From the NCBI RefSeq assembly GCF_017355785.1, contig NZ_JAFEWE010000002.1, positions 1-64,000 on the forward strand: a DNA stretch of 64,000 nucleotides, in the 5' to 3' direction. Of the stretch, positions 17,592 to 49,641 are shown one piece after another. This DNA comes from Desertivirga arenae. GTDB lineage: Bacteria > Bacteroidota > Bacteroidia > Sphingobacteriales > Sphingobacteriaceae. The notes beneath the pieces were generated by a model, which saw nothing but the letters and a program-made list of their open reading frames with translations, ran no database searches and was not told the origin of the DNA. How positions within the stretch are numbered: position 1 is the first letter of the stretch; each line of letters begins with the position of its first letter. The translations under genes and the position numbers were made by a program.

Positions 17592-18218
17592 TCAGGAAGT
17601 AATAAAGTTAAACAGGAAAAGCATAATGACAGAAAGCCCGCTAAAGAAAGGCACATTGCTTTCCTTGTTATAGGGTTGCATTACTGTATTTAACTTTTTC
17701 ATAGCCCTGTAAAGCTGGGTATGAACTGTTTTGGGAGAAACATTTAGAATTTCAGCTACCTCTTTATATTTTAAACCATCTTCTTTAACCAGCCTGAATA
17801 TTATTTTGCATTGTTGTGGAAGTGATTCAATAGCCTGATCCATCAGAAAGATCAACTCGCGTCTTTCAACTTCCTTCTGAGGGCACCAGGGATCAACAAA
17901 CTCCAGTTCCGAATCATCAAGACTCACCAAATGAATATTCGAGTACTTTTTGATGTAGTTTAGTGACTGGTTCTTTACTGCTATGTAGAGATATGATTCA
18001 ACATTCTGTACATGCGCAAGTTTTTTTCTATTGATCCAAAGATTTGTAAACACATCTGATACAATTTCTTCAGCTGCCTCCTGATTATGCAGATAAAAGA
18101 CAGAGAACTTTATCAAACGGGAACTTAATTGAAAAAAGAATAACTCAAACGCTTTAGAATCGTCATTCTCTCTTATCTTAAGCCAAATAGATCCAATTTC
18201 TTTTCTTTCAATTGCCAA
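17592..18218 (-). CDS. ECF-type RNA polymerase sigma factor (Bacteroides expansion family)
   Basis: 208 residues. Region 2 (about 28-95) has FSVFYLHNQEAAEEIVSDVF and LWINRKKL; region 4 (about 128-180) has LPQQCKIIFRLVKEDGLKYKEVAEILNVSPKTV with a clear helix-turn-helix. A hydrophobic C-terminal tail (about 188-206) is typical of the sigma-70 subfamily in Bacteroidota that pairs with FecR anti-sigma factors and SusC receptors. No anti-sigma gene is adjacent. The only FecR in the window starts at 47564, at the other end of the glycan locus, and lacks a sigma gene of its own. Pairing of the two is an inference. Confidence 0.9.
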   Translation of the reverse strand: MAIERKEIGSIWLKIRENDDSKAFELFFFQLSSRLIKFSVFYLHNQEAAEEIVSDVFTNLWINRKKLAHVQNVESYLYIAVKNQSLNYIKKYSNIHLVSLDDSELEFVDPWCPQKEVERRELIFLMDQAIESLPQQCKIIFRLVKEDGLKYKEVAEILNVSPKTVHTQLYRAMKKLNTVMQPYNKESNVPFFSGLSVIMLFLFNFITS

Positions 18219-18595: not shown

Positions 18596-21058
18596 TTAAG
18601 GCGTGATAAAATGTGTACCCTTGACTTGTATGCGGGTACTTAATGGTAAGTTGTCAGAGCTACCCCCGGTCATTAAGGTAAATGAGCCTGGCTCAACAAC
18701 CTGTTTCAGGGTACGATTATATAGGGCAAGGTCTGCGGCATCAAGTAAAAATTCAACTAACTTCTCTTCACCCGGCATAAAATGCACCCTATTAAATTTC
18801 GCAAGTTGCTTATCTGCGCTTACTACAGAGCTAATATCGTCCCTAAAATACAGCTGAACCACTTCATCTCCTTCCCTTTCGCTATTGTTCTTTACTCTTA
18901 CTCTTACTTTTACGATCAGTTTATTTTCTGTTTCCTCAACGTTGGCGGACAGCTCTGAATATTTGAAAGATGAAAAGCTTAATCCATAGCCAAAACTATA
19001 AAGGGGCTTAGAAGATCCCTCAACATAATTATGCTTTCCAGGGCTCTTATAATTATAATATACAGGTAACTGACCCACAGAAACAGGTACAGAAATGGGA
19101 AGCCGGCCTGCGGGATTATAGTCGCCAAATAATACATCGGCAATTGCATTTCCACCTTCCTGTCCCGGGTACCACGCAGTTAATATAGCATCTGCCTGCT
19201 CTTCAGCAAGGTTCAGATTTAAGGGTCTCCCCTCTATCATCACCACAGCAACAGGTTTGCCCGTCGCTAAAACGGCTTTTAACAGCTCAGTTTGTTTACC
19301 CAAAAGATCCAGGCTCATACGGTCAAATCCTTCACCGCTTTCCATATCTGGAATTGCACCCTGCTTTTCTTCTGAAACTTTAGCTGCTCCTGTACTGATG
19401 TACTCCGTTTTAAAGTCACGGGCGCTGGATCCGCCTAATACAAGGATGGTGATATCTGAATTCCTGCTCAGTCGAACAGCCTCTGCTATATTAGATGAGC
19501 TTGTATCTCTGACGGCACAGCCTTTAACGTAATCAACACTTATCCCTTTACCAGCTCTTGCGCGAATACCTTCCAGTACAGTCACCACTGATTCATCTCT
19601 CTGTGGAGCCGTATAATCGCCCAATTGATTATAGAGATTATCTGCATTAGGTCCGATGACGGCAATCTTTTTAAAATCACTCTTTAAGGGAAGGACGTTA
19701 TTTTTGTTCTTCAAAAGCACTATAGACTCTCTAGCTACCTGCCTTGCCAGTTTAATGTGCTCCGGTGTACCGACAGTAGTTTTTGCGAGGCTAGCGTCTA
19801 CATAAGGTTTTTCAAATAATCCCATCTTGAATTTCAGCCGCAACAGATTCGCTACTGCAGAATCCAAACGCGCCTCGCTTACCCTGCCTTGTTTTACCGA
19901 TTCAATTAACCCTTTATTGAATCCATTTCCTCCGAGATCTGCATCAAGTCCGGAATTCATAGCTAAAGCAGCGGCCTCTGCAGGATTTGCAGCCACGCGG
20001 TGGGTCATGAAAACTCCTTCTATACTTCCAAGGTCAGATACCGTGAAGCCATTAAATCCCCACTGATTCCTTAAAACATCTTTTAACAGGAAAGGATTGG
20101 CAGAACAAGGAACACCGTCGACAGAATTATAAGCAGTCATAACAGACTGGGCACCTGCTTTAACGGCAGATCTGAAAGGCGATAAATACGACTGGTAAAG
20201 CTCTCTTGGACCCGAATTGACACTTCCCCCATTATGTCCCCCTTCCGGAACTCCGTAAGCAGTGAAATGCTTTAAGGTAGAAATGATATTAGCTCCACTT
20301 TTCAGATCAGAGCCTTGGAAACCCTGTACCATTGCTATCCCCATTTCTCCGTTAAGGATTGGATCTTCGCCGTAGGTCTCTTCCACTCTCGACCAACGCG
20401 GTTCGCGTGCAAGGTCAAGAACCGGACCGTAGCCTATATGGGCACCCTGAACACGGGCTTCCCGGGCAATTGCAGAAGCCATTTTCTTTATTAGATCAGG
20501 GTTCCAGGTACTTCCCTGACCGATAGAGGTAGGAAAAACAGTAGTTCCAATAGCCATATGACCATGAGGACACTCTTCGGCAATAAATAAAGGGATCCCT
20601 AAACGGGTATTTTCCAGGGTGTATTTTTGAAGAGCATTAGTTGCGAGTGCAGATTCATAAGGAGACAAGCCGTTACTTAATGTTTTTTTTGTCCATGGAT
20701 CTGCTCTCAAAGTAGCCCATAACATTCCGATATGCCTTTCTTTAATGGCCTGTCTGAATTTTGCTGACACCCCGATCTTAGCTCCGCCCTTTTCATACAT
20801 TTCCCAACCAAGGAGGGCAGAAATTTGTCCTACCTTCTCCTCAAGGGTCATGCGCCCCAGCAGATCTTTCACTCGCTGCTCCAAATCTGCTTTGGGATTT
20901 TTATATACTGGAGTTTCCTTAAAAAGAATCTTTTGAGATACTCCCGGTTCAGTCTTTTCTTTTACCTGAAAGCCTTTTTTGCCCCCTGTCGAAAAGACTG
21001 GAAAAGCAAAATGCAATAAGACAGCAGTAATAAGTAAGTGTATTTTTTTATGAAGCAT
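18596..21058 (-). CDS. Glycoside hydrolase family 3 (beta-glucosidase/xylosidase-like)
   Basis: 820 residues from ATG 21058. A start at 21079 is open but overlaps cutC and spoils the signal peptide that begins MLHKKIHLLITA. The order is the N-terminal TIM barrel (IAEECPHGH, GYGPVLDLAREPRWSR, LKHFTAYGVPEGG), the nucleophile Asp in VSDLGS (near 340; the family norm is SDW), a second alpha/beta domain (VLPLKSDFKKIAVIGPNAD) and a C-terminal fibronectin III-like domain. The family usually removes beta-linked glucose or xylose from the non-reducing end; some members remove GlcNAc. It is the last gene of the 12-gene run, 10 bases after cutC, and is followed by two terminators. Confidence 0.9.
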   Translation of the reverse strand: MLHKKIHLLITAVLLHFAFPVFSTGGKKGFQVKEKTEPGVSQKILFKETPVYKNPKADLEQRVKDLLGRMTLEEKVGQISALLGWEMYEKGGAKIGVSAKFRQAIKERHIGMLWATLRADPWTKKTLSNGLSPYESALATNALQKYTLENTRLGIPLFIAEECPHGHMAIGTTVFPTSIGQGSTWNPDLIKKMASAIAREARVQGAHIGYGPVLDLAREPRWSRVEETYGEDPILNGEMGIAMVQGFQGSDLKSGANIISTLKHFTAYGVPEGGHNGGSVNSGPRELYQSYLSPFRSAVKAGAQSVMTAYNSVDGVPCSANPFLLKDVLRNQWGFNGFTVSDLGSIEGVFMTHRVAANPAEAAALAMNSGLDADLGGNGFNKGLIESVKQGRVSEARLDSAVANLLRLKFKMGLFEKPYVDASLAKTTVGTPEHIKLARQVARESIVLLKNKNNVLPLKSDFKKIAVIGPNADNLYNQLGDYTAPQRDESVVTVLEGIRARAGKGISVDYVKGCAVRDTSSSNIAEAVRLSRNSDITILVLGGSSARDFKTEYISTGAAKVSEEKQGAIPDMESGEGFDRMSLDLLGKQTELLKAVLATGKPVAVVMIEGRPLNLNLAEEQADAILTAWYPGQEGGNAIADVLFGDYNPAGRLPISVPVSVGQLPVYYNYKSPGKHNYVEGSSKPLYSFGYGLSFSSFKYSELSANVEETENKLIVKVRVRVKNNSEREGDEVVQLYFRDDISSVVSADKQLAKFNRVHFMPGEEKLVEFLLDAADLALYNRTLKQVVEPGSFTLMTGGSSDNLPLSTRIQVKGTHFITP

Positions 21059-21068
21059 ATCTCTAAAA

Positions 21069-21809
21069 TTAAAAAGCATTTGTACCGGCAGTAATTAAGC
21101 GGCGTACCTTAGCGGCGTCTGTCACTTCGAGTTCCGATTGAAAGATGTGAGTAGAAGAAATTTGAGGGTTTACAAAATGGCTTCTGTCTTCAAGCACCCG
21201 GGCAGATGCATGGTACTCCTGCGCTCCTGTAATCCTGATCAACTCACTAATATTATTTTCATTGATCCCGCTACCAGGCATTATGACTATCCGGTTGTCT
21301 GATAGTTCTACCAGTTCTCTTAATCTACTTGCCCCTACTAAGGCTGTGGGAGCAGCACCCGAGCTGAGGATCCGGTCAAATCCCAGGTCAATAATTTCCG
21401 TTAACGCTTGCTTTTGATCCTTGCACACATCAAAAGCCCGATGAAAAGTTGCAGTGATCCCCCGTTTGCGGGCATAAGAAAGAAGTTTATAATTACGATC
21501 AAGATCAATCGTGCCATCCTTATTTAAAATTCCAAACACCACTCCTTTACATCCGGCATTCGCACTAGCTTCGAGGTCCATTTCCATCTCCTCCAATTCC
21601 AGGCTGGAATAACAGAAATCGCCCCCACGGGGTCTGATAAGAACATAAACAGGAATTTGGAGATATTTAACACAAAGACTTATCTGGGCGTAAGACGGTG
21701 TAGTCCCTCCTTCCGTTAAATTGCTGCAAAGCTCTATCCGGGACGCTCCTCCGGATTGAGCTGCCAGTGCCGAACGAACTGAATTAGCGCATACTTCCAG
21801 CTTAAACAT
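21069..21809 (-). CDS. cutC: CutC family protein
   Basis: 246 residues forming a TIM-barrel-type CutC protein: FKLEVCANS, GGASRIELCSNL, EGGTTPS, PVYVLIRPRGGDF, ATFHRAFD, RILSSGAAPTA and GSGINENNI. The family was named for copper homeostasis, but the biochemical role is unsettled. Here the gene lies between glycosylasparaginase and GH3 in a glycan operon, with its ATG overlapping the upstream stop codon by one base, so translation is probably coupled. No copper-related gene is near. A sugar or amino-sugar role is a reasonable inference. Confidence 0.9.
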   Translation of the reverse strand: MFKLEVCANSVRSALAAQSGGASRIELCSNLTEGGTTPSYAQISLCVKYLQIPVYVLIRPRGGDFCYSSLELEEMEMDLEASANAGCKGVVFGILNKDGTIDLDRNYKLLSYARKRGITATFHRAFDVCKDQKQALTEIIDLGFDRILSSGAAPTALVGASRLRELVELSDNRIVIMPGSGINENNISELIRITGAQEYHASARVLEDRSHFVNPQISSTHIFQSELEVTDAAKVRRLITAGTNAF

Positions 21810-22819
21810 TAGTAATGACTTTTACTTGCAAATAATCCTTCCTGATTTTCGCTGGTACATACTGCATAAGAAAATCCTTTCTGGATGGCATAAGCTCCAT
21901 ATTCCCCGTTCTTATTCAACGCAAGAAATCCAACCTGAAGACTTTTAGCCCTTTCTGGTTTCTTTTTAATGATCCGGTTCACTGCTTCCCTGCAAGCTTC
22001 ATAAGGAGTATAGCCGTTACGCATCAGTTCGACAACAAGAAAACTTCCTACATTTCTGATCACCTCTTCACCAACTCCTGTAGATGTAGCACCCCCGATT
22101 TCATTATCAACATATAAACCGGCTCCAATAATCGGACTGTCTCCGACACGCCCATGTAACTTGAAGGCCATGCCGCTGGTGGTACAGGCACCTGAAAGAT
22201 TGCCCTTCTCATCCAAAGCTAACATACCAATGGTATCATGATTAAACTGGTTCCCTGGAAGCTTATCCGGCCTGTAAAGTTGGTTTTCCACATTGATCAC
22301 GGGGTTGTACTTAGCTGTCTTCAACCATTCTTTCCAGGCTTTCTCTGATTCTGGCGTAAGCAGTTTCTGTTCTTTAAACCCCATCTCCAAGGCGAATTGC
22401 TTCGCACCATCTCCCACCAGCATAACGTGAGGTGTTTTTTCCATTACCAGGCGCGCAACCGAAATAGGGTGATCGATATCTTCCAATGCCGCTACCGAGC
22501 CGCAGTTACCGAACTCGTCCATGATACAGGCATCCAGCGTCACTATCCCATCCCTGTCGGGGTAGCCTGCCCTTCCCACACTATGATTATTCAGATCTGC
22601 TTCGGGTATCCTAACGCCAGCCTCAACTGCATCCAGAGCCCTGCCTCCTTTTGAAAGGATACGCCATGCTTCCTTATTGGCAGGGATCCCGAAATCCCAG
22701 GTAGAGATCACTACAGGATATCTTTTTTCGTTAGTAAGGATGTCCGCCGCTTTAACCGGAATAGCCAAAGTGGAAGCTGCGAGAGTTGAAACCTTAATAA
22801 ATTTTCTTCTGCTATACAT
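21809..22819 (-). CDS. N4-(beta-N-acetylglucosaminyl)-L-asparaginase (glycosylasparaginase)
   Basis: 336 residues from ATG 22819. The frame runs back to 23038, but that part overlaps the transporter gene and lacks a signal sequence. The N-terminus has a twin-arginine motif, SRRKFIK, then a hydrophobic stretch. The Ntn-hydrolase core has the autoproteolysis and nucleophile site HDT, with Thr196 as the catalytic residue, followed by GMLALDEKGNLSG, TSGMAFKLHGRVGDSPIIGAG and GATSTGVGE. The enzyme cuts the GlcNAc-Asn amide bond, the last link between an N-glycan and its asparagine. It needs a free Asn (no flanking peptide). It lies 5 bases after the sugar transporter gene. In this operon it is the key that points to N-glycoproteins as substrate. 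Confidence 0.9.
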   Translation of the reverse strand: MYSRRKFIKVSTLAASTLAIPVKAADILTNEKRYPVVISTWDFGIPANKEAWRILSKGGRALDAVEAGVRIPEADLNNHSVGRAGYPDRDGIVTLDACIMDEFGNCGSVAALEDIDHPISVARLVMEKTPHVMLVGDGAKQFALEMGFKEQKLLTPESEKAWKEWLKTAKYNPVINVENQLYRPDKLPGNQFNHDTIGMLALDEKGNLSGACTTSGMAFKLHGRVGDSPIIGAGLYVDNEIGGATSTGVGEEVIRNVGSFLVVELMRNGYTPYEACREAVNRIIKKKPERAKSLQVGFLALNKNGEYGAYAIQKGFSYAVCTSENQEGLFASKSHY

Positions 22820-22824
22820 AAGCG

Positions 22825-24120
22825 CTAGTTCTTGCCACTTCTGCGGGAAGCTGCCAGTCCGTAATAGAAAATAAAAATATAACAGGGCACCATGATCCAA
22901 TAGGCAACCTGAAGATCGTATAGATCCGCCAGACGTCCATAGATCAAAGGAATAACTGCCCCCCCGGCTATCGCCATGATAAGCAAGGAGGACCCAAATT
23001 TCGTGAACCTCCCCAAACCTCTTAGCGCCAGTGGCCATATAGCCGGAAATACAAGAGAGTTAGCAAAACCAAGTAATGCGATAAACAAAACAGAAATGTA
23101 ACCCGAAGTAAATATGGCAGCGACCGTAAAAACAACACCAATAAGAGCAAATCCTTTCAGCGCATTTTCCTGACTTAGATATTTAGGAATAAATATTACG
23201 CCCACGATATATCCCAGGATCATACCTACCAGGGTACATGTAGTGAAGAATTTCGCCGTAGAAAGAGGGATGCCATGATAAGCCCCATAGCCAATTACTG
23301 TATCTCCTGCCATCACTTCTACACCCACATAAAGGAACATTGCTATAACGCCCATTATCAGAAAGGGAAACTGCAGGATACTTGTCTTTCCATTATTTGC
23401 CAATGCGGTGTCCTCGTCCTCCTTGTCTGTATCGATCTCCGGCAGTGCGGAAAAATAAATCAGGACTGCTAGTACCAGGAGTACTGCCAGAATTATCAGA
23501 TAGGGAACAATTACGCGCGCTGCTAGAGCATCTAATTCGGCCGTCTTTTGAGCCAGGCTCATGGAGGCTAGCCGTGCTGTTAATCCGTCAGCATTTTTTA
23601 AAGTAACTGCTCCCAGTGCGATAGGGGCAATAGAACCGGCCAGCTTGTTACAAATACCCATGATGCTAATCCTCTTTGCTGCACTTTCTGCAGGGCCAAG
23701 AATAGTGATATAAGGATTTGCAGCGGCTTGCAAAATCGTTAACCCTGCCCCTTGTATGAATAAACCTATTAGAAAGAGCAGGTAGGTTCGACTCAATGCA
23801 GCTGGAATAAAAAGTAGAGCTCCTACTCCCATTACTACTAAGCCAGCTGACATACCCTTTTTAAAGCCTGTGAGTTTTAATACCCCGGCTGCGGGTATGG
23901 CCATAACCAGGTACGAAATATAGAAAGCAAAGGCCACCATGTACGACTGACTGTTACTTAGCTCGCAGGCAATTTTAAGGTAAGGAATAAGGACTGAATT
24001 CAGCCAGGTGACGAATCCGAAAATAAAAAATAGAGCTCCTATTATAACGATCGGCTTTACTGCCGGCGCTTTAGCTTTCATTGCGTTTTCAACCACTTCT
24101 TCTGTGTATGCTGTTGACAT
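22825..24120 (-). CDS. Sugar MFS transporter (FucP/GluP/NagP type)
   Basis: 431 residues with 12 membrane spans. Family features include FFIFGFVTWLNSVLIPYLK, GLFIQGAGLTILQAAANPY, RISIMGICNKLAG and a central cytoplasmic loop. These inner-membrane proteins are proton symporters for fucose, glucose/galactose or GlcNAc. Genomic context (nagB immediately upstream in the operon, glycosylasparaginase immediately downstream) favours GlcNAc, as for NagP proteins, but fucose or galactose are equally compatible with the sequence. The spacing to neighbours is 11 and 5 bases. Confidence 0.85.
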   Translation of the reverse strand: MSTAYTEEVVENAMKAKAPAVKPIVIIGALFFIFGFVTWLNSVLIPYLKIACELSNSQSYMVAFAFYISYLVMAIPAAGVLKLTGFKKGMSAGLVVMGVGALLFIPAALSRTYLLFLIGLFIQGAGLTILQAAANPYITILGPAESAAKRISIMGICNKLAGSIAPIALGAVTLKNADGLTARLASMSLAQKTAELDALAARVIVPYLIILAVLLVLAVLIYFSALPEIDTDKEDEDTALANNGKTSILQFPFLIMGVIAMFLYVGVEVMAGDTVIGYGAYHGIPLSTAKFFTTCTLVGMILGYIVGVIFIPKYLSQENALKGFALIGVVFTVAAIFTSGYISVLFIALLGFANSLVFPAIWPLALRGLGRFTKFGSSLLIMAIAGGAVIPLIYGRLADLYDLQVAYWIMVPCYIFIFYYGLAASRRSGKN

Positions 24121-24131
24121 AAGCTCTTATC

Positions 24132-26051
24132 TTAAAAGGAATATCTTACAAATGCTTCGATTGCTTCATATTCAGCCAATCCAAGCTGATTGTAAGCTCT
24201 GGCTGTTTCCCGGGTGCGGTCTTCTGCTCTTACCCAGAATTCCCTTGAATCGTCTCCTGGGAATACGGCTCTGTCTTTTTGCGATTGATGCTTGAAGATT
24301 GCCATGCGCTTGCGCTCTACTTCCTGTGGCGAAAGTGGAACTGCCATTTCTATTTCATGGATTTCAAACTCATGCCATGCTCCACGGTACAACCACAACC
24401 AGCAGTCTGCAATCCAATCCTCTGTTGCCTTCAGCCTTTGTAAAGCTTCATGGATAATATTAAAGCAGATCTTATGGGTACCGTGCGGGTCGGCAAAATC
24501 ACCGGCGGCATACACCTGATGGGGCTTTACCTCTTTTAACAGCTCCATCGTTTGAAGGATATCATCTTCGTAACTTACCTTTTTCTGCTTCTTGGCCCTG
24601 TCGTAAAATGGAAGGTCCATGAAATGAATATGATCATCAGGAAGACCTGCATAACGGGCTCCGGCAATTGCTTCTCCCTTACGGATCAAACCTTTCACCC
24701 GCTGGATCTCTTTCAGATCCTCCTGATTGGGAGTCTTCTCGTCAAAGAAACCTTTCATTTCAACATATAACGCTTTAAGGTCCGTTGTATCCTGTCCTTG
24801 TGCTGCTCCAAAATCTATAGCAAACTCTACAAAGCGCAGTACATCATCATCCCATACGGCTGTATTTCCTGAAGTTTGATAAGCAACATGAACATCGTGA
24901 CCATGATCAGCCAGGCGGATGAAGGTACCTCCCATAGAGATCACATCATCATCCGGATGAGGAGAGAACAACAGCACCCTTTTCTTTGCCGGATCCCTTC
25001 TCTCTGGCCGTTGTGAATCATCTGCATTGGGCTTTCCTCCCGGCCATCCGGTAATGGTATGCTGTACGGCGTTAAAGATCCTGATATTGATATCGTAAAC
25101 GGGCCCCTGTTCAGTTGCCAGCTGAGCCATACCATTATTATTATAATCCTCTTCTGTAAGTTTCAAGATGGGTTTATTTACCGCCTTAGCCAGCCAGATC
25201 ACCGCTTTCCTGATGTTCTTCTCATCCCAAACCATGTCTTTCACTAACCATGGCGTATTGAAGCGGGTCAAATCAGCAGCTGCATCCTGATCCAAAACGA
25301 ATTCTACATTGTCGGATAGCTGAAGATAAGTTGCCGGGACATCAGAAGATATTTCCCCTTCTACTGCTTTTCTGATGATCGGAGCTTTCTTTCCGCTCCA
25401 GGCCATCAGGATAATTTCTCTTGCTTTGAAAATCGTTCCCACTCCCATGGTGATCGCCTTTACCGGAACGTTTTCCTTTCCTCCAAAATCATGAGCCGCA
25501 TCACGACGGGTAAGATCGTGAAGGGTTACTACACGGGTACCCGAATTAGGTGCAGAACCAGGTTCGTTAAAACCGATGTGACCGGTACGACCGATTCCCA
25601 GGATTTGCACATCCAGTCCACCCAAGTCGGAAATCTTTTTTTCGTACTGAAGGCAGAACTCGTTCCTTTCCTCAGGACTCAAGGTTCCATTCGGAATATT
25701 CACATTGGCAGGATCGATATCAATATGGTCAAACAAGTTCTCGTGCATGAACCTTACATAGCTCTGTTCAGCACCAGGTTGCATGGGATAATATTCATCG
25801 AGATTGAAAGTAATAACGTTTTTAAAGCTAAGACCTTCCTCCTTATGCAAACGGATCAGCTCGGCATACACCTGCAAAGGTGTTACCCCTGTTGCCAGTC
25901 CAAGAATTGCATGTTCAGACTTTTCCTGCTTTACTCTGATAATACCCGCTATCCGCGCGGCTACAGCTTTAGATGCAGTTTCTTTATCAGCAAAAATAGA
26001 TACAGGTAGTTTTTCAAATCTGGTTTCTTCTAAGAGATTTAATCTTGCCAT
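24132..26051 (-). CDS. nagB: Glucosamine-6-phosphate deaminase fused to PIG-L (LmbE) deacetylase domain
   Basis: 639 residues, more than twice the length of E. coli NagB. The N-terminal domain (about 1-270) has the deaminase motifs GLATGVTPLQVY, FNLDEYY and GIGRTGHIGFNEPGS. The C-terminal domain (about 360-639) is a PIG-L-type deacetylase with the zinc motif SPHPDDD (near 368) and a second metal site in FADPHGTHK (near 520). The deaminase converts glucosamine-6-phosphate to fructose-6-phosphate and ammonia. The PIG-L domain could supply the preceding deacetylation of GlcNAc-6-phosphate; no nagA is in the window. This long form is common in Bacteroidota. It lies 1 base after the GH2 stop and 11 bases before the transporter gene. 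Confidence 0.9.
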   Translation of the reverse strand: MARLNLLEETRFEKLPVSIFADKETASKAVAARIAGIIRVKQEKSEHAILGLATGVTPLQVYAELIRLHKEEGLSFKNVITFNLDEYYPMQPGAEQSYVRFMHENLFDHIDIDPANVNIPNGTLSPEERNEFCLQYEKKISDLGGLDVQILGIGRTGHIGFNEPGSAPNSGTRVVTLHDLTRRDAAHDFGGKENVPVKAITMGVGTIFKAREIILMAWSGKKAPIIRKAVEGEISSDVPATYLQLSDNVEFVLDQDAAADLTRFNTPWLVKDMVWDEKNIRKAVIWLAKAVNKPILKLTEEDYNNNGMAQLATEQGPVYDINIRIFNAVQHTITGWPGGKPNADDSQRPERRDPAKKRVLLFSPHPDDDVISMGGTFIRLADHGHDVHVAYQTSGNTAVWDDDVLRFVEFAIDFGAAQGQDTTDLKALYVEMKGFFDEKTPNQEDLKEIQRVKGLIRKGEAIAGARYAGLPDDHIHFMDLPFYDRAKKQKKVSYEDDILQTMELLKEVKPHQVYAAGDFADPHGTHKICFNIIHEALQRLKATEDWIADCWLWLYRGAWHEFEIHEIEMAVPLSPQEVERKRMAIFKHQSQKDRAVFPGDDSREFWVRAEDRTRETARAYNQLGLAEYEAIEAFVRYSF

Positions 26052-26052
26052 A

Positions 26053-28713: not shown

Positions 28714-28734
28714 GTGTGCGTATTAAATGTCCTA

Positions 28735-31032: not shown

Positions 31033-31042
31033 ATAATTTGGT

Positions 31043-32146
31043 CTAAGTGTGTTTTTTAAACTTTTCAAGGCTTTTCAGCACGTCTTCCGTTACATCGCCA
31101 AAAAGCGAGATCCCTCCGGCACCCTTATCCAGGGCAACCTTTATTCCGGCTTCAAGTTCCTCTTTATTTTTAAAATCAGGCAGAAAAACACCTGCATAAA
31201 GAGGAAAGCGTCCGTTGAGTGCTTTTACCCCTTCATTAACAGCGTCACCTATCCAGCTCACCGGTTCCTTATAAAAGCCATGATAGATCATTGGACATAT
31301 CCCCGTAAGGTTCCAATTCACCCAATCCTGACGCACATTTCTTTTGGCAACTTCTGGCGTGGGAAACACTGCAGCGGTTATTGATTTCTTCTTTGAAGCT
31401 GCAACTGCCGCGAGCTGATTAACGATACCAGTAATAGCATTATAACGGAACAATCTCCAGGAAAGACTGGCTTCGGGATATTCCAGCTGATCGACATCCT
31501 GTCCGTATTGTTCCTTAAACTTCCTTTTACAATCGCTGCAATAGCAATAATCGTATTCCGGAAGTTCGCTGGTCTGAACGATCTTATAATTCTTCCAGAG
31601 GTTTACAGGAAGGATTATATCACAAAAACGAACATAGTCAAGGTGAATACCATCCACATAATCCTTATTGAGATTATGCTCCACATCCTTTTTCAGATAA
31701 GCCAGGGTTTCGGGCTTGCTGGGGCATAACCAGCGGTAGTAGTCTACATAAGGAGGCTTGTCAACACAGGACTCCCCTTTACGATTTATGGCAAATATTT
31801 CAGGATTGGCTTCCCGAAGGCTTTTCTCGCCCCTGTTCATCGTCCAGATCCAGCGATGAGCTTCGAGGTTGCAAGCTTTAGCTGTCCGGAAATGAACTTC
31901 GCTGTCTCCTTCGAAGAAGATGCCACGAATCCCAGCACTGTAATAACGAGAGTACCTCTGCTTCAATTCCTTTTCACTCTCACCATGCTTCGGGTTTATC
32001 CATACCCAGTGTTTAATAACCGGAGTATTTGCAATGGTACTCTTAAGTTCAGTTGCTGTAAGGGTTGAGAGTCCGCTAAAATTAGCGGCAGCTATTCCCG
32101 TTCCTGCTACAATGCTTTTTTTTAGAAAATTCCGTCTATTACTCAT
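31043..32146 (-). CDS. GHL10-like putative glycoside hydrolase with Tat signal
   Basis: 367 residues starting with a twin-arginine signal, SNRRNFLKKS, and a hydrophobic segment. The body looks like a TIM barrel of the GHL10 / family 10-like group: HWVWINPKHGES, VDGIHLDYVRFCD with an acidic pair, and a Cys-rich CYCSDCKRKFKEQYG insertion characteristic of these proteins. I do not know a defined substrate. It is 2 bases after the CBM9-like gene and 10 bases before the GH92 gene, so it belongs to the operon. The second Tat signal in the operon is notable because the other enzymes use Sec signals. Confidence 0.7.
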   Translation of the reverse strand: MSNRRNFLKKSIVAGTGIAAANFSGLSTLTATELKSTIANTPVIKHWVWINPKHGESEKELKQRYSRYYSAGIRGIFFEGDSEVHFRTAKACNLEAHRWIWTMNRGEKSLREANPEIFAINRKGESCVDKPPYVDYYRWLCPSKPETLAYLKKDVEHNLNKDYVDGIHLDYVRFCDIILPVNLWKNYKIVQTSELPEYDYCYCSDCKRKFKEQYGQDVDQLEYPEASLSWRLFRYNAITGIVNQLAAVAASKKKSITAAVFPTPEVAKRNVRQDWVNWNLTGICPMIYHGFYKEPVSWIGDAVNEGVKALNGRFPLYAGVFLPDFKNKEELEAGIKVALDKGAGGISLFGDVTEDVLKSLEKFKKHT

Positions 32147-32148
32147 AC

Positions 32149-33270
32149 CTACAAAGCTTGTATCAAACCTTCATCGTTTATACTCCAGGAACTTTTACCA
32201 GCACTGATAACTACGTTAAACTGCCGGGTCCCGGCTTCCATGTTCAAGCTGTTAAGCTTACCGGAAATGGAGAAAGAAGCTGCTGGAAAACCAAGGGTAG
32301 CTATATTGGAAGCATAGCGGCCATGCTTCGAATGATATTCCTTTTGCCGGTAGTAAAGCAGCCATAGATATTGTTTCTGTTGCTCAGAATAAGGAAGCAC
32401 AAAAGAACCGGGCTCTTCTTTACTACTGAATTGCAGATACCCCCAACGCTCCGGCAGATGCATGTTAATCACGCCTTGGGGGGACCAAACCCAATTATTT
32501 TCCGGTAATACTTTCCCATTCTTGTCCTTCAGTTTTTCATACTTGCTTCCCGTCCCTTTAGTATCCCACTCAACTCTTGAAAAATTTATGCGCCAGAGAC
32601 TTCCATCCTTAGGGATCACCGGATCATTGCCGATGGAAATGCAAGAGAAAGGGATAGCCATTTCAACAGTCCAGCCCTTGTCCTGATCACTGGCGTCATT
32701 AATGCTTCCTAAAACTTTTACTGCCGACTTCATCCCCTTTGCGTCCCAGGAGATCAAAGCTCCGGAGTTGTTACGGTAAGGTTTTGAAAGGAAAAGATCA
32801 AAAACGGTATTCAGAGCATTTAGCTCTATTTCAAAATACTGGTGTGTATTATTATCGGGATCTATAAAAACTTCAAAGTCGTTATCATAGAAGATCACTT
32901 CATCGTGTTTGGTAATATTAGCCCAGACACCAGGTTCTTCCATTTCTGCAGCGATATATAAACAGTTTTTATCCCAAAGCATTTTTGCCCTGGTGTTATG
33001 CCGGGGTTTTGGTTTCAGATCCCCTTCAATATCTGAAAAGCTTTCTGTCCACAACGCCCTTTCCCATACTTTATCTCCGTAAACATCTCCGTCTATTTCC
33101 GGGGCGACCTTCGCATATCCGGCAACATAAGCTAAAGGAGGAGTAAAAAGGTGTTTAAAATCTGCTGCTTTTGCCGGTGCAGGAGCTTGAGCAAGAGCCG
33201 CACTGCCTCCACCAAACAAGAACAAAGACAAAACACAGCAGAAAGAATATTTTATTAATTTATGAGTCAT
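32149..33270 (-). CDS. Carbohydrate-binding family 9-like secreted protein
   Basis: 373 residues with a Sec signal peptide (ending ALAQ). The region from about residue 45 to 270 matches the CBM9-like domain: EIDGDVYGDKVWERALW, LYIAAEMEEPGVWANI, DNDFEVFIDPDNNTHQYFEIELNA and WRINFSRVEWDTKG. Such domains bind sugars at reducing ends or act as accessory modules; no catalytic domain is present. It is 7 bases after the GH35 gene and 2 bases before the GHL10-like gene. The C-terminal 80 residues contain a long helical stretch (QQKQYLWLLYYRQKEYH) of unknown role. Confidence 0.75.
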   Translation of the reverse strand: MTHKLIKYSFCCVLSLFLFGGGSAALAQAPAPAKAADFKHLFTPPLAYVAGYAKVAPEIDGDVYGDKVWERALWTESFSDIEGDLKPKPRHNTRAKMLWDKNCLYIAAEMEEPGVWANITKHDEVIFYDNDFEVFIDPDNNTHQYFEIELNALNTVFDLFLSKPYRNNSGALISWDAKGMKSAVKVLGSINDASDQDKGWTVEMAIPFSCISIGNDPVIPKDGSLWRINFSRVEWDTKGTGSKYEKLKDKNGKVLPENNWVWSPQGVINMHLPERWGYLQFSSKEEPGSFVLPYSEQQKQYLWLLYYRQKEYHSKHGRYASNIATLGFPAASFSISGKLNSLNMEAGTRQFNVVISAGKSSWSINDEGLIQAL

Positions 33271-33277
33271 TTAGAAC

Positions 33278-35158
33278 TTAGGGTGTTGAGATTAACTGTT
33301 CAAGAATAAGCTTTTCTATTCCCGTGATGCTCTCTTTTATGGTATCATTCAGCTGCTCGAAAACAGCAATTTCATTTTTACCTTTATTTAACCAGCAACT
33401 GGGAACATAAAGCGTTTGCTGGGGACCAACATTCCAATACCTCCCCAGATTGTGACCATTAACAAAAACAATCCCTTTTCCCCAGCCCTGCATATCAAGG
33501 AAAGTATCTCCTGTTTTTTGAAGGTCGAAACTTGCGTAATACATCGCAGGCTGACCTTGTTTATTACGGTTATTGAAATTCTCCATATTTGGAACAGTTT
33601 CGAACGGCATTTTGTACATTTCCCAACCTCCCGAGATCTCGAAATCATTGATCTTAACGGGACTTATTATCCCCTTTCTATTATTCACGATCTCTTCGCC
33701 GTAATTGATCCTGCCCATATTCTCAACAAGCAGCTCCAGGGTACTATTGAAAGGAATGTTAACCTCCAGTTCATACTGGTTAAGCATACGGTTTAACACC
33801 CCCACTCTCATTCCATTTACGTAAACGGTTGCATAATCACGCAATCCTTCAACTTTCAGCTTCCCTTGTACAGGTTGGTTAAAACGTTTACTGTACAGCA
33901 CGTACCCATGACCCTGGTTTAAATCCTCAAAACTCAAAGGCTGAACATTAGAAACAGGCCTTATCGGCTTCTTTAGGTCTGAAAGCACTACGGTTTTGGA
34001 AAAGCGCAGGGGACCGAGTGAAATAACAGGCAAGGCAGGAGGCACTTCAGGAAGTTTCCCCTTGGTATACTTTGCCAGAAGTTCCCTTATTGCGGTATAT
34101 TTTGGCGTAACCCAGCCTGGTTCTGAAACGAGAGCATCATAATCGTAACTGGTAATATCCGGTTGAATATCATGTTCATTATTATAATTAGCGCCGGAAG
34201 TAAAACCGAAGTTTGTTCCCCCATGAACCATATAATAGTTGAAGCTGATTCCCGCTTTCAGATAAGTTTCTGTTTGCTTAGCTACTTCCTCCGCGGAAAT
34301 CCTGACGAAGGGTTCGCCCCAATGATCCAGCCAGCCAGGATAAAATTCAGCTACCATGTATGGCCCCTTATTTCCATTATACTTGTCGACGGCCTTTTTT
34401 AGATTATCAATATTGTTTTCTCCGTTCGCAGTGGGTAAAACCCCGGCAAGAGCGCCGCCCTCAAAAAGCCATGATCCATCACTTGTAAAAAATGGTCCTT
34501 CGAAACCAGATTTTAAAAGCATCCCTTTAATTGCCTCGTTGTACTTTTTATGTTCGGCAAGTGGAATATCCTTTCTTTGATTTACGTAGGATCCAAATTC
34601 GTTCTCAACCTGAACCATAATAACAGGTCCGCCTTTGCTTACCTGAAAACCTTTCACCTCTGCCGCTAAACGCTGGATATATTGGTTACAGGAATCGAGG
34701 AAGGGTTTGTTATAAGAGCGGATCACCAGATCCTTCTCCTTTTGTAACCACCAGGGATAACCACCGAACTCCCATTCTGCACATGCGTACGGGCCTGGTC
34801 GAAGGATTACAAACAATCCTTCCTCCTGCGCAATCTTCAGATATTCTCTGATGTCTTTGTTGCCCGAGCGAAAATCCCATACTCCCGGAGCGGTATTATG
34901 ATAGTTCCAGAAAACATAGGTGGCAACAGTATTAAGGCCCAATGCCCTTAACATTTTCATCCTGTGCCGCCAGTATTCTTTAGGGATGCGCGCGTAGTGC
35001 ATCTCTCCTGAGCGTACCTGTACTGGCTTGGAATCGTATAGGAACTGGCCCTCCTTAATCTCGAACGAGTGCTTCTTTTGAGCGAAAAGGCTGCTATCCA
35101 TTCCGAGCAGCAAGAGCAACAAGAGAGCTATCCTGTTTATAGCCTTAAAATTCAACAT
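33278..35158 (-). CDS. Glycoside hydrolase family 35 beta-galactosidase
   Basis: 626 residues with signal peptide (ending LFAQ). GH35 TIM barrel motifs: RSGEMHYARIPKEYW, LNTVATYVFWNYHN, LRPGPYACAEWEFGGYPWWL, acid/base Glu in VQVENEFGSY (near 187), nucleophile Glu in VAEFYPGWLDHWGE (near 272), then MVHGGTNFGFTSGA. C-terminal beta-sandwich domains (about 400-626) follow. The family removes terminal beta-linked galactose, as on complex N-glycan antennae. It sits in the operon with 20- and 7-base gaps to GH20 and the CBM9-like gene. Confidence 0.92.
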   Translation of the reverse strand: MLNFKAINRIALLLLLLLGMDSSLFAQKKHSFEIKEGQFLYDSKPVQVRSGEMHYARIPKEYWRHRMKMLRALGLNTVATYVFWNYHNTAPGVWDFRSGNKDIREYLKIAQEEGLFVILRPGPYACAEWEFGGYPWWLQKEKDLVIRSYNKPFLDSCNQYIQRLAAEVKGFQVSKGGPVIMVQVENEFGSYVNQRKDIPLAEHKKYNEAIKGMLLKSGFEGPFFTSDGSWLFEGGALAGVLPTANGENNIDNLKKAVDKYNGNKGPYMVAEFYPGWLDHWGEPFVRISAEEVAKQTETYLKAGISFNYYMVHGGTNFGFTSGANYNNEHDIQPDITSYDYDALVSEPGWVTPKYTAIRELLAKYTKGKLPEVPPALPVISLGPLRFSKTVVLSDLKKPIRPVSNVQPLSFEDLNQGHGYVLYSKRFNQPVQGKLKVEGLRDYATVYVNGMRVGVLNRMLNQYELEVNIPFNSTLELLVENMGRINYGEEIVNNRKGIISPVKINDFEISGGWEMYKMPFETVPNMENFNNRNKQGQPAMYYASFDLQKTGDTFLDMQGWGKGIVFVNGHNLGRYWNVGPQQTLYVPSCWLNKGKNEIAVFEQLNDTIKESITGIEKLILEQLISTP

Positions 35159-35178
35159 TGGCCTGTCTTTGAATTGAT

Positions 35179-36786
35179 CTATTTTTCTTTCTTAACCGTC
35201 GACAGAGGATCGAAAAATGCCCTGCTATAGTTTACCTTCCACAAGTCGTACCTTGAGAACTGAACTTTCAAGCGTTTCTCAAAATCGCTCCAGTCGCGAC
35301 TCTCTTTCAGACTCCACAACACTTCGCTTAATGCACTCATCCTTGGGAAGATCTGATATTCCACTTTTGCAGGATTGGTAATATATTCAGTCCAGACATT
35401 AGCCTGGGCTCCAAGGATATACTTATGCGATGCCACAGGTAGTGCTGCTGGCAGTGGCTCGTAGCTATAGACTTTCTGAACTGTTGTAAAGCCCCCGAAT
35501 GTAAGTGAATCCTCTCTCGCACTTTGAGAATGGTCGAAGTACATATAGCCACCCGGCGTCATCATTACATAGTGATTCTGCTTTGCAGCCTCAATTCCTC
35601 CTTCTTCCCCACGCCAGCTCATTACAACGGCATTAGGTGCAAGGCCTCCTTCAAGGATTTCGTCCCAACCGACAATCGTTTTTCCCTTAGCGTTTACATA
35701 TTTCTCCATGCGCTGGATAAAATAGCTCTGCAACTCATGCTCATCCTTAAGCTTATGATCCTTTATGCGCTGCTGGCATTTCGGGCACTTCTTCCAACTG
35801 GTCTTAGGACATTCGTCGCCGCCGATATGGATATACTTAGAAGGGAAAAGAGGGGCAACTTCATCAATAACATCCTGTAAAAAAGTAAACACTTTATCAT
35901 TACCAGCACAGAAAACATCATCAAAAACACCCCATGTTTCCTGAACTTTATAAGGCCCGCCTGTACAACCAAGGTAAGGGTAAGCTGTAAGAGCAGCAGA
36001 GGCATGACCAGGCATCTCTATTTCAGGAACCACTGTTATATACCTGTCGGCGGCATATTTAACCACCTCCTTAATCTGCTCCTGGGTATAAAATCCTCCA
36101 TGCGGCGTGTTGTCGTTCCCCGTGCCCGGGTAATGTCCTATTATCGTTCCCTTACGAACAGACCCAACTTCCGTTAGCTTAGGGTATTTCTTTATTTCAA
36201 TCCTCCAACCCTGGTCGTCTGTAAGGTGCCAGTGGAAGTAATTCATCTTATGTAGGGCAAGATAATCTATGTATTTTTTTACAAAAGAAACGGGAAAGAA
36301 ATGCCGGCTTACATCAAGATGCATTCCGCGGTAATCGAAACGAGGTTTATCTTTAATAGTTAAAAACGGGATATCGAGACTTTTCTTTGCCGGATCCAGG
36401 GTTTGTATCAGCGACTGAACACCATAGAAGATACCCGTCTCTGTTCCTGCATTGATAAAAACGCCCTCCTTCTTAACGGTTAAAGAATATGAATTATCAG
36501 CTGTTCCAGACTTTTTGTCAAGGTTCAGATAAACACCCTTTGATGTTTGCTTGGGGTTCTCCTGAAGGTTCAGGTTATAGAAATCCTGCAAATAGGTTTT
36601 CAAAAAACCGGCTGATTTTTTCAAGCCCTGTTGCTTGTAAACAATCGGGGTACCTGTGCTAAGCGTAAAACTGCCTTTCGATTGGGAAAGGCTCATTTCT
36701 GCCGGACGGGGAATAATACTTACCTGCGCCCGAAGTTCCCTTCCAAGCGATAAAGCCACTAATAAGCCAACCAGGATCTTTTTCAT
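35179..36786 (-). CDS. Glycoside hydrolase family 20 beta-N-acetylhexosaminidase
   Basis: 535 residues from ATG 36786 (MKKILVGLLVALS, signal peptide ending RAQ). The frame opens at 36840, but that start overlaps the fucosidase gene. An N-terminal GH20b domain (about 22-140) precedes the catalytic barrel with GMHLDVSRHFFPVSFVKKYID, MNYFHWHLTDDQGWRIEI, PEIEMPGHASAAL and the catalytic Asp-Glu pair in HIGGDECPKTSW (near 322). The enzyme removes terminal beta-GlcNAc or GalNAc by substrate-assisted catalysis. In this context it would remove GlcNAc from N-glycan antennae after GH35 has removed galactose. Confidence 0.93.
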   Translation of the reverse strand: MKKILVGLLVALSLGRELRAQVSIIPRPAEMSLSQSKGSFTLSTGTPIVYKQQGLKKSAGFLKTYLQDFYNLNLQENPKQTSKGVYLNLDKKSGTADNSYSLTVKKEGVFINAGTETGIFYGVQSLIQTLDPAKKSLDIPFLTIKDKPRFDYRGMHLDVSRHFFPVSFVKKYIDYLALHKMNYFHWHLTDDQGWRIEIKKYPKLTEVGSVRKGTIIGHYPGTGNDNTPHGGFYTQEQIKEVVKYAADRYITVVPEIEMPGHASAALTAYPYLGCTGGPYKVQETWGVFDDVFCAGNDKVFTFLQDVIDEVAPLFPSKYIHIGGDECPKTSWKKCPKCQQRIKDHKLKDEHELQSYFIQRMEKYVNAKGKTIVGWDEILEGGLAPNAVVMSWRGEEGGIEAAKQNHYVMMTPGGYMYFDHSQSAREDSLTFGGFTTVQKVYSYEPLPAALPVASHKYILGAQANVWTEYITNPAKVEYQIFPRMSALSEVLWSLKESRDWSDFEKRLKVQFSRYDLWKVNYSRAFFDPLSTVKKEK

Positions 36787-36808
36787 TTTTGGTGTGTGTT
36801 TGATTGTA

Positions 36809-38332
36809 TTAATAAGATTGCTTGTATAAACCGATCTCACTTAAAACCGGGTTCCTTCTTGATGAATGGATATTTATTCTAAACTCTTTCCCTTTAACTG
36901 CAGGAAATTTACACAGTCGTTTATAGCCTACTGTGGTCCCCTGCGCCAGGAGCTTCCACTCTCCATTGCTCTTATACTCCAGACTGAAAGCCTCAACTCT
37001 CTGCCCCTTCATAATATTCTCCTGAACGGAAAGGATATCTATTTCCTGTGGTTCTTTTAAAGTAATATTGATAGTGGCTGTTGAATCTTTTCCTTTGGTG
37101 GTCCAATCAGTGGAATAAACATTATCGGTTAGCGTTTTTATTTGTTGCTTATTGCTACTGGTCTTTCCTTCAGATGCATAGTTCCTAGAAAAGGTTTTAT
37201 TAAGTATTGATCGAAAACCTTTAAGGCTGGTCACGTCACTGTTGCTAATCAAACCCCTTGTATCAGGAGGAATATTTAGGAGGAGAACACCATTTTTTCC
37301 TACCGAGTGGAAATAGATGTCTGTTAACTTCTCTGGACTTTTTACCTGGGTATCCTCCTCCGGATGATAAAACCATCCCGGTCGTATAGATACGTCTATT
37401 TCTGAAGGATACCACACCAAAGCCTTCGCCTTCAAAATCTTCTCCCGGCTACCCAGATCATCTTCCATCCTGTTTTTTGGAGCGAAGGAAACTTCTTTCT
37501 GGGAACCATCTGCAACACTTTCCTGATTCTGCAGGTCGACTGGCACTACACTCCATTCCGTTTCCCTTCCATATCCGGTTTCAGTACCTACCCATCTTAC
37601 ATCCGGCCCCATCACAGCAATTACAGCCTGCGGTTGCAACTTACGGATCAACCTATACCACTTGTCAAAGTCATAGTCCTGTTTCTTGCCTCCCGGTCCC
37701 TCTCCATTAGCTCCATCAAACCAAACTTCGTCAACCTGTCCGTAATTCGAAAGCAGTTCTGTTAACTGGTTCATGAAGTAATCGTTATAAGCCTGATTAT
37801 TACCGAACAATTTGGAATTCCTGTCCCATGGAGAGAGATAAATACCGAAGCCTATTCCATATTTCCGGCAAGCCTCTACAGTCTCTTTTACAACATCGCC
37901 CATTCCAGCCTTCCAGGGACTGCTTTTAACGGAGTAATCTGTATAAGCGCTGGGCCAGAGACAAAAGCCATCATGATGTTTCGCCGTTAGGATAACCTGT
38001 TTAATCCCAGCTTCTTTACAAATCCTCACCCATTGTTCTGCGTCTAAAGCTGTGGGATTGAACTTTGACGGACTATCAGTTCCATCTCCCCATTCTTTAC
38101 CCGTGAAGGTGTTCATTCCAAAGTGTATAAAACCTGTCATTTCCAATTGCTGCCAGCGCAATTGACGTGGAGCGGGAACTACAAAACTGGCCTTCTGTAT
38201 AATCTGACTATACGTATCCGTACTCTCAATAATTACCGAATTTTTCTCTTCGGTCTGCTGAGCAAAGGAATTAGTAATCCCTGAAAAAAACAGAAAAGCA
38301 CTAAGACAGTAAATATGGAATTTGGGATTCAT
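36809..38332 (-). CDS. GH29 alpha-L-fucosidase with C-terminal discoidin-like domain
   Basis: 507 residues with signal peptide (ending SFAQ). GH29 barrel motifs: MTGFIHFGMNTFTGKEWGDG, KQVILTAKHHDGFCLWPS, GIGFGIYLSPWD and the nucleophile Asp in VWFDGANGEG (near 204). The C-terminal 130 residues resemble a CBM32/F5-8C-type module. The compact WFDGANGEG form and the extra domain fit the GH29-B type that prefers alpha-1,3/4 fucose, but this is by resemblance. It is the first gene of the tight 12-gene run, preceded by a 131-base gap with a hairpin. Confidence 0.9.
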   Translation of the reverse strand: MNPKFHIYCLSAFLFFSGITNSFAQQTEEKNSVIIESTDTYSQIIQKASFVVPAPRQLRWQQLEMTGFIHFGMNTFTGKEWGDGTDSPSKFNPTALDAEQWVRICKEAGIKQVILTAKHHDGFCLWPSAYTDYSVKSSPWKAGMGDVVKETVEACRKYGIGFGIYLSPWDRNSKLFGNNQAYNDYFMNQLTELLSNYGQVDEVWFDGANGEGPGGKKQDYDFDKWYRLIRKLQPQAVIAVMGPDVRWVGTETGYGRETEWSVVPVDLQNQESVADGSQKEVSFAPKNRMEDDLGSREKILKAKALVWYPSEIDVSIRPGWFYHPEEDTQVKSPEKLTDIYFHSVGKNGVLLLNIPPDTRGLISNSDVTSLKGFRSILNKTFSRNYASEGKTSSNKQQIKTLTDNVYSTDWTTKGKDSTATINITLKEPQEIDILSVQENIMKGQRVEAFSLEYKSNGEWKLLAQGTTVGYKRLCKFPAVKGKEFRINIHSSRRNPVLSEIGLYKQSY

Positions 38333-49597: not shown

Positions 49598-49626
49598 AGT
49601 GCATTCTGCCAATGGCAGGATGCACT
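49598..49626. promoter_or_regulatory. Strong leader hairpin upstream of the giant T9SS protein gene
   Basis: AGTGCATTCTGC (49598-49609) pairs with GCAGGATGCACT (49615-49626) over 12 positions including one T-G wobble, with a five-base loop. It ends 15 bases before the preferred start codon (49642) and would cover the alternative ATG at 49612, so it may affect translation or be a terminator for antisense transcription. Confidence 0.5.
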
Positions 49627-49641
49627 CTAAAATCTAAGTTG

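Follow-up and report, generated by a model that had tools for sequence, protein, structure and literature searches.

Asparagine-linked glycans (N-glycans) are dismantled in lysosomes by a fucosidase, glycosylasparaginase (AGA) and exo-glycosidases acting after proteolysis, a set of activities that recurs in the DNA analysed here, a 64,000-nucleotide stretch (the window; positions 1 to 64,000 of contig NZ_JAFEWE010000002.1, assembly GCF_017355785.1) of Desertivirga arenae, a bacteroidote of the family Sphingobacteriaceae. The lysosomal system differs in belonging to a eukaryotic organelle and in being without SusC/SusD or an operon containing CutC. Among bacteria, an N-glycan cluster called nix was reportedly described in Xanthomonas by Dupoiron in 2015. 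Bacterial N-glycan loci, those of Bacteroides massiliensis and Xanthomonas included, are reviewed in PMC10154615, the accessible part of which describes stepwise processing of plant N-glycans with GH92 and GH29 enzymes, and it is by this description that we liken the Xanthomonas cluster to the window locus.

Two systems allow a closer comparison. The plant N-glycan pathway of B. massiliensis, as given in the accessible part of PMC9522356, shares with the window a GH92 enzyme (its 7ZGM is a closest solved relative of ours), GH29 enzymes that act on antenna and on core fucose, a beta-xylosidase of family GH3, a GH20 and SusC/SusD genes in associated loci, but there a peptide:N-glycosidase (PNGase) releases the glycan, the galactosidase belongs to GH2 and the genes are dispersed over several loci. 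The window instead has one operon that also holds AGA, CutC, GH35 and a CBM9-GHL10 pair, and our search for a PNGase was uninformative (see below). In Lactobacillus casei the alf-2 system, according to the available portion of PMC6960285, combines an alpha-fucosidase, a major facilitator superfamily (MFS) carrier and a glycosylasparaginase to use fucosylated N-acetylglucosaminyl-asparagine (fucosyl-GlcNAc-Asn); that AGA is intracellular and its substrate is an already trimmed glycoamino acid, whereas the window AGA carries a signal of the twin-arginine translocation (Tat) type and is accompanied by a full set of exo-glycosidases.

From the sequences we think it rather probable that the window locus is a SusC/SusD system for the N-glycans of glycoproteins or glycopeptides, plausibly those of plants, in which CutC would serve as an amino-sugar enzyme downstream of AGA. 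CutC, the most informative gene of the locus, had been named without comment in the initial annotation of this DNA.

Linkage of CutC to glycosylasparaginase

By sequence the window AGA is a genuine glycosylasparaginase (EC 3.5.1.26). It matches solved glycosylasparaginases, which we take to be the Elizabethkingia enzyme, at E 1e-121, against about 1e-35 for isoaspartyl peptidases, and its Thr269 (numbered in the long open reading frame, ORF) aligns with residue 1 of the AGA catalytic beta chains. Called mechanically, the ORF spans 21809-23038 and runs into the MFS gene, but the alignments of most relatives begin only near its residue 70; at residue 74, around position 22819, there is a start of Tat type, MYSRRKFIK, and the N-terminus MYSRRKFIKVSTLAAS reads by eye as a Tat signal. 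Hydrolysis of GlcNAc-Asn by this protein is predicted. The genome holds a second Asparaginase_2 gene (contig C38:40401-41216), probably not an AGA.

The distribution of the two genes was examined in two samples, one of 151 genomes from the family to which the window belongs and one of 178 genomes from across Bacteroidota. In the family sample, where matches of E 1e-113 or better counted as AGA (a level reached in 109 of the 129 genomes that had a match at all) and those at E 1e-41 and above were treated as other Asparaginase_2 members, AGA is present in 109/151 genomes, CutC in 115 and both in 108, with CutC alone in 7 and AGA alone in 1. Of these 108 genomes, 80 have the two genes no more than 2 kb apart, always co-oriented and with CutC downstream of AGA. 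In six genera, among them the window's own, some genomes have both genes and others neither (a tally that uses the same AGA cut, leaves weak Asparaginase_2 matches uncounted and covers 149 of the 151 genomes); the two other genomes of the window's genus are without AGA and CutC. In the phylum sample, with AGA accepted at E up to 1e-60, the counts are 83/178 for AGA, 53 for CutC and 52 for both; 27 of these 52 pairs, spread over eight families, are no more than 2 kb apart (23 on the same strand, 4 on opposite strands) and two more are separated by 5-10 kb. The odds ratio for CutC with AGA is 158, compared in the same 178 genomes with 5.5 for MIP, an unrelated control, and 3.8 for CopD (taken as all 44 genomes matching at E up to 0.001, 30 of them above the family cut-off). 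That CutC almost never occurs without AGA while AGA often occurs without CutC fits a CutC that acts downstream.

CutC also recurs beside amino-sugar genes on plasmids. Sixty plasmid records encode CutC, 40 were listed and 21 inspected by choice, leaving out all the listed Enterobacteriaceae, Proteus and Aeromonas plasmids together with records H1, H3, H5, H13, H14, H15, H23 and H39; genes were taken from the records' annotation and from tblastn. In 14 of the 21 inspected (L167-L170, L172, L176-L180 and L183-L186) CutC has at least one of nagA, nagB, a GlcNAc kinase, murQ, GH20 and AGA at a distance of up to about 8 kb, the proportion being 13/18 outside Bacteroidota (the Bacteroidota plasmids are L173, L176 and L182). 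Partial neighbourhoods are seen in L171 (a BadF-type kinase with GH2/GH3), L175 (ROK with an M81 peptidase), L182 (GH92) and L187 (ROK and a weak Asparaginase_2 match); nothing relevant adjoins CutC in L173, L174 and L181, the last having a weak ROK match only. Two 49-kb control stretches from the same plasmids gave 0/37 and 0/43 annotated genes of GlcNAc-related types, the one labelled 'asparaginase' being a PF00710 protein and not of the AGA family. A block of GH20, M81 peptidase, MFS and CutC, with RidA nearby, recurs in Rhizobiales and Rhodobacterales (L168, L172, L178, L180, L186), and its substrate is possibly muropeptide-like.

CutC copies of the two genome samples that are unlinked to AGA give a mixed picture. 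Their neighbourhoods were read as ORFs with a lower size limit of 90 or 110 residues and with nested ORFs dropped, a filter that missed CutC itself in 1/20 family loci and 2/40 phylum loci (one of the two being the sole phylum genome with CutC and without AGA), and neighbours were identified in these loci only as relatives of window proteins. GH92 and/or GH2 flank CutC in 6/19 readable loci of the family sample, including two loci from a genus in which no AGA match was found, and in the phylum sample a flanking GH2 is seen in 1/21. All six GH2 proteins checked that adjoin CutC or lie one ORF away from it in other genomes carry beta-mannosidase Ig domains. In three genomes of one family (L128, L132, L141) a 455-residue protein adjoins CutC, and the scanned L128 copy is an M20 peptidase. 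The L. casei pepV, linked to the glycosylasparaginase gene of that organism, is also annotated as M20 in the accessible text of PMC6960285. Nine AGA-unlinked CutC loci from two genera of the window's family (L106-L110, L116-L119) share a conserved neighbourhood, from which one protein was scanned, a small beta-barrel protein of the outer membrane in L107.

Several of these results count against an amino-sugar role for CutC. The flanks of 13/19 readable unlinked loci in the family sample, and of 20/21 in the phylum sample, hold no relatives of the window locus (two of the 20 have GH92 seven genes from CutC), and a Pfam scan of 20 CutC neighbour proteins gives most of them no apparent relation to glycans. 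The E. coli cutC stands by yecM and torY, outside any amino-sugar cluster, that of Parabacteroides next to genes for ATP synthase and RND efflux, that of Cetobacterium among unrelated genes, and in Embleya the sole relevant neighbour is a weak ROK match. The hand-chosen plasmids include near relatives (two from Sinorhizobium, several from rhizobia). The presence/absence tests ignore phylogeny, and the p of 1.5e-6 reached by the unrelated MIP shows that their significance is inflated; 31/83 AGA genomes of the phylum sample are without CutC. On the side of the locus itself, GH2 and GH3 each have several candidate specificities, and neither AGA nor CutC occurs in any of 56 loci built around the CBM9-GHL10 pair, within the stretches read.

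Fold and possible function of CutC

The model of the window CutC superposes on human CutC (3iwp) with Z 37.7 and a root-mean-square deviation (rmsd) of 1.6 over 242 aligned residues and thus has the CutC fold. After CutC itself, the model comes nearest to MJ1099 (Z 22.3), to hexulose-phosphate synthases (20.8 and 19.0) and, at 19.0 each, to phosphoribosylanthranilate isomerase and a Rubisco, with a large group of TIM barrels at tied scores behind them, a ranking which for this model suggests phosphorylated-sugar chemistry and no specific reaction. Residues conserved in 15 Bacteroidota CutC proteins are, by eye, mostly kept in the human and Shigella proteins, the latter differing at one Thr of EGGTTPS, and their persistence makes a chemistry shared by CutC proteins plausible. 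We lean, if narrowly, to the view that CutC, whose family extends from E. coli to human, is an enzyme of cytoplasmic amino-sugar catabolism, which in Bacteroidota would act on the products of AGA (GlcNAc, 1-amino-GlcNAc or their phosphates) and whose human homologue would carry out a related chemistry in N-glycan breakdown. The more specific version, in which CutC is a glycosylamine hydrolase or isomerase, is weaker and seems to us improbable. Our literature searches surfaced no enzymatic reaction for CutC, though they were not aimed directly at one, and, among the titles listed, no report tying CutC to asparaginase or glucosaminyl terms or to nagA, most subscription papers being out of reach.

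Bacterial and human records alike label CutC a copper protein, and a competing account is that it serves copper homeostasis, its adjacency to AGA being a conserved gene order without a common pathway. Besides this historical annotation, the RND efflux genes by the Parabacteroides copy, the weak co-occurrence of CutC with CopD (p 0.00025) and the lack of a glycan neighbour in most AGA-unlinked copies would all be in keeping with such a role. The copper reading was compared with the AGA association through CopD and MIP in the 178 genomes, and neither approaches it, CutC being accompanied by AGA in 52/53 cases; the pair is also found in differing relative orientations, and alphaproteobacterial CutC genes sit in amino-sugar clusters that hold no AGA over the stretch read. 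In E. coli, moreover, the region of cutC carries the small RNA MicL, according to the part of PMC8216713 available, and we infer that MicL, as another possible source of cutC phenotypes, makes cutC deletions weaker evidence for a copper function. Genomic context thus argues against a role for CutC in copper tolerance, and we regard the copper account as having a poor chance of being right.

Organisation and probable substrate of the locus

The 12 minus-strand genes that the initial annotation had placed at 18596-38332 are all present as ORFs, and Pfam and NCBIfam give them the families it had named (GH29, GH20, GH35, CBM9-like, GHL10, GH92, GH2, NagB-PIG-L, MFS, Asparaginase_2, CutC and GH3). 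Their spacing is operon-like; the initial annotation had given gaps of 1-22 bases and one overlap, and the ORFs as called mechanically overlap more than that, because for some of them the first start codon is placed too far upstream. The run is not a free-standing operon, for the Pfam scan of the window proteins shows it to be the tail portion of a longer locus on one strand (Table 1), with an esterase, SusD-like and SusC-like proteins, FecR and a second GH29 upstream, and an extracytoplasmic function (ECF) sigma factor and then GH43 downstream; the SusC/SusD pair, FecR, sigma factor, esterase and second GH29 had gone unmentioned. With a SusC/SusD pair beside genes for carbohydrate-active enzymes and a regulator (FecR and ECF sigma), this is a Bacteroidota polysaccharide utilisation locus. 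The sigma factor likely regulates it together with FecR, and whether GH43 belongs is uncertain.

Table 1. Genes of the locus in the window, from the upstream to the downstream end.
Gene product	Position	Strand	Evidence
GH29b, alpha-L-fucosidase, exported (N-terminus)	47692..49152	-	PF01120 330 bits; closest solved 6gn6
FecR-type anti-sigma regulator	46443..47564	-	Pfam FecR, FecR_C
SusC-like TonB-dependent outer-membrane importer	42732..46310	-	Plug, CarbopepD_reg_2, STN
SusD-like surface glycan-binding lipoprotein	41073..42659	-	SusD-like_2 206 bits
Exported esterase/peptidase-like alpha/beta hydrolase	38464..40974	-	PF00756 32 bits, PF00326 28 bits
GH29a with F5/8C domain	36809..38332	-	Pfam; closest solved 4zrx, then 3ues
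GH20 exo-beta-N-acetylhexosaminidase	35179..36840	-	PF00728 417 bits; closest solved 6q63
GH35 beta-galactosidase	33278..35158	-	PF01301 346 bits
CBM9-like exported protein, partner of GHL10 gene	32149..33270	-	PF06452 55 bits
GHL10 protein, Tat-like N-terminus	31043..32146	-	PF02638 33.9 bits (cut-off 27.9)
GH92 alpha-mannosidase	28735..31068	-	PF07971 580 bits; 6f8z/7zgm tied as closest solved
GH2 with Ig_GlcNase domain	26053..28713	-	Pfam; closest solved structures
NagB-PIG-L fusion, amino-sugar deaminase-like, cytoplasmic	24132..26051	-	NF002557 1031 bits; no signal peptide by eye
MFS sugar importer, GluP/NagP-like	22825..24120	-	TIGR01272 312 bits, above cut-off
Glycosylasparaginase (AGA; Asparaginase_2), Tat-type signal	21809..22819	-	Closest solved relatives; nucleophile Thr in NHDTIGM
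CutC, cytoplasmic TIM barrel	21069..21809	-	PF03932 235 bits
GH3, beta-xylosidase/beta-glucosidase type	18596..21079	-	Pfam
ECF sigma factor	17592..18218	-	Pfam
GH43, locus edge	16485..17504	-	PF04616 160 bits

Read by eye, the N-termini of the glycosidases, CBM9, GHL10 and AGA look exported, those of AGA and GHL10 being of twin-arginine type, and CutC and NagB-PIG-L appear to be the only cytoplasmic enzymes of the run. Among the glycosidases, GH29a has 4zrx and then the alpha-1,3/4-fucosidase 3ues as solved relatives and is probably of the alpha-1,3/4-fucosidase type, removing antenna (Lewis-type) fucose; GH29b is a candidate for removing core fucose and GH3, all of whose NCBIfam matches fall under the cut-off, a candidate for removing core xylose. 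The structure closest to GH20, 6q63, is one that we take to be BT0459. The GH92 has 6f8z (622.6 bits) and 7zgm (622.5 bits) as tied closest structures, one of 17 GH92 matches in the genome, 16 of them above the cut-off. According to the accessible part of PMC9522356, BT0459 is a GH20 that cleaves chitobiose and 7ZGM a plant N-glycan alpha-1,3-mannosidase of B. massiliensis. Because the window GH92 ties with this mannosidase, a plant-type N-glycan is plausible, and an N-glycan of some type likely.

The GH2, which had been expected to remove beta-mannose, is not clearly a beta-mannosidase. Its best solved relatives are exo-beta-D-glucosaminidases, with beta-mannosidases second, and in Pfam it has Ig_GlcNase where a beta-mannosidase would have the Mannosidase_ig and Ig_mannosidase C-terminal domains. 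A plant endo-beta-mannosidase is a further possibility for this family, so that the sequence leaves beta-mannosidase, exo-beta-glucosaminidase and endo-beta-mannosidase as its three candidate activities.

In the route that we propose, glycopeptides would enter through SusC/SusD, and in the periplasm GH29a, GH35, GH20, GH92, GH2, GH3 and GH29b would trim the glycan to GlcNAc-Asn, the CBM9-GHL10 pair perhaps cutting an amino-sugar bond on the way. The Tat-exported AGA, if it acts as its family does, would split GlcNAc-Asn into aspartate and 1-amino-GlcNAc or GlcNAc; the NagP-like MFS carrier, which scores 372 bits with the NagP model, under that model's cut-off of 625, would bring the sugar in, and NagB-PIG-L and CutC would process it in the cytoplasm. 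The conjunction in one operon of N-glycan-type exo-glycosidases with a glycosylasparaginase, read earlier as exo-degradation of glycoasparagines, is borne out by the sequence, and such a strategy is plausible. It is not new in kind, since the L. casei pathway (PMC6960285, as far as its accessible text goes) precedes it and, of the 83 Bacteroidota genomes with AGA in the sample of 178, at least 17, the window's own among them, have a GH92 gene no more than 8 kb from AGA, a minimum count made from the GH92 matches listed and selected AGA matches.

A rival reading has the locus directed at a plant or algal cell-wall polysaccharide with fucose, galactose and xylose, such as xyloglucan, in place of N-glycan. 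GH29, GH35, GH3, GH43 and GH2 occur in hemicellulose loci too, and the GH43 at the locus edge fits such a substrate; yet GH92, GH20, AGA, NagB-PIG-L and a NagP-like carrier are unexpected for xyloglucan, and no endo-glucanase family was matched among the scanned locus proteins. We therefore hold a cell-wall substrate to be improbable and keep to N-glycan.

Other observations bear on the surroundings of the locus. In two genomes of the family (L094, L096) AGA and CutC sit in other clusters with GH35, GH29 and SusC genes, and the SusC and SusD of L096 are 62-63 percent identical to those of the window; taken with the differing clusters, this identity makes the locus appear reshuffled among genomes. 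The window further encodes, at 49612-55812, a 2066-residue protein whose only domain match besides a type IX secretion tail is marginal, and, at 12697-14952, a nitric oxide reductase subunit B-like protein (NorB cytochrome c-like domain with COX1).

The CBM9-GHL10 pair and possible endo-acting release

The initial annotation saw no endo-beta-N-acetylglucosaminidase in the run. Indeed, the Pfam scan gives no GH18 or GH85 domain, nor a PNGase, among the locus proteins, and GH85 has 0 matches in the whole genome, in a search in which the control genome, that of L. lactis, did give a match. The lone GH18 of the genome was considered as an N-glycan endoglycosidase and set aside, its best NCBIfam model being a chitinase (below cut-off) and the Endo H model matching faintly, at 28 bits. 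The PNGase F C-domain PF09113 has 0 matches in the genome but none in the control genomes either, which makes that search uninformative, and the PNGaseA-type PF12222 was not searched. The absence of an endo-acting enzyme nevertheless remains uncertain, given that the predicted structure of the GHL10 protein resembles those of Cwp19 and PgaB.

A scan with the GHL10 protein yielded 56 loci in named genomes, some of the stretches being cut by contig ends, and in 54/56 the CBM9 gene lies directly upstream on the same strand. The loci also hold relatives of GH92 (19/56), GH2 (8), GH29b (7) and GH3 (3), and from the lack of AGA and CutC we take the AGA-CutC and CBM9-GHL10 modules not to be generally linked. 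No characterised member of the module (window 31043-33270; L028-L083) turned up. The GHL10 model (pLDDT 84) is closest to Cwp19 (Z 25.6, rmsd 2.6, 273 aligned), then to the hydrolase domain of PgaB (Z 24.4, rmsd 3.1, 294 aligned), a poly-glucosamine hydrolase; GH42 enzymes follow, starting at Z 23.5. For Cwp19, a lytic transglycosylase of the GHL10 family with a solved structure, the accessible part of PMC5765458 has Asp196 as the proposed catalytic residue and Asp195 largely buried. In a weak profile alignment (E 0.018), which a one-residue shift would alter, Cwp19 Asp196 falls on Tyr171 of our protein, a Tyr in 20/20 relatives, and Asp195 on the invariant Asp170.

It follows that release may not be purely exo-acting: the pair could be a cryptic endo-acting enzyme on the chitobiose core or another amino-sugar bond, a view to which the tight CBM9-GHL10 association, the GH92 relatives in a third or so of the loci and the predicted fold lend something. 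Against it stand the weakness of the sequence match to Cwp19, the Tyr in place of its proposed catalytic Asp, the closeness of other TIM-barrel hydrolases such as GH42, the want of AGA in any of the 56 loci, and a GH20 that may already cut chitobiose as BT0459 does (PMC9522356, accessible part). We judge an endo-acting pair rather unlikely, and trimming by exo-glycosidases followed by AGA remains the reading we prefer.

Significance

Within a single operon the locus would provide a path that takes N-glycopeptides in the direction of central metabolism. It matters most for the amino-sugar role that it suggests for CutC: the near-exclusive link to AGA in one phylum and the GlcNAc genes beside many plasmid copies in another would together give this protein a concrete pathway and concrete candidate substrates.

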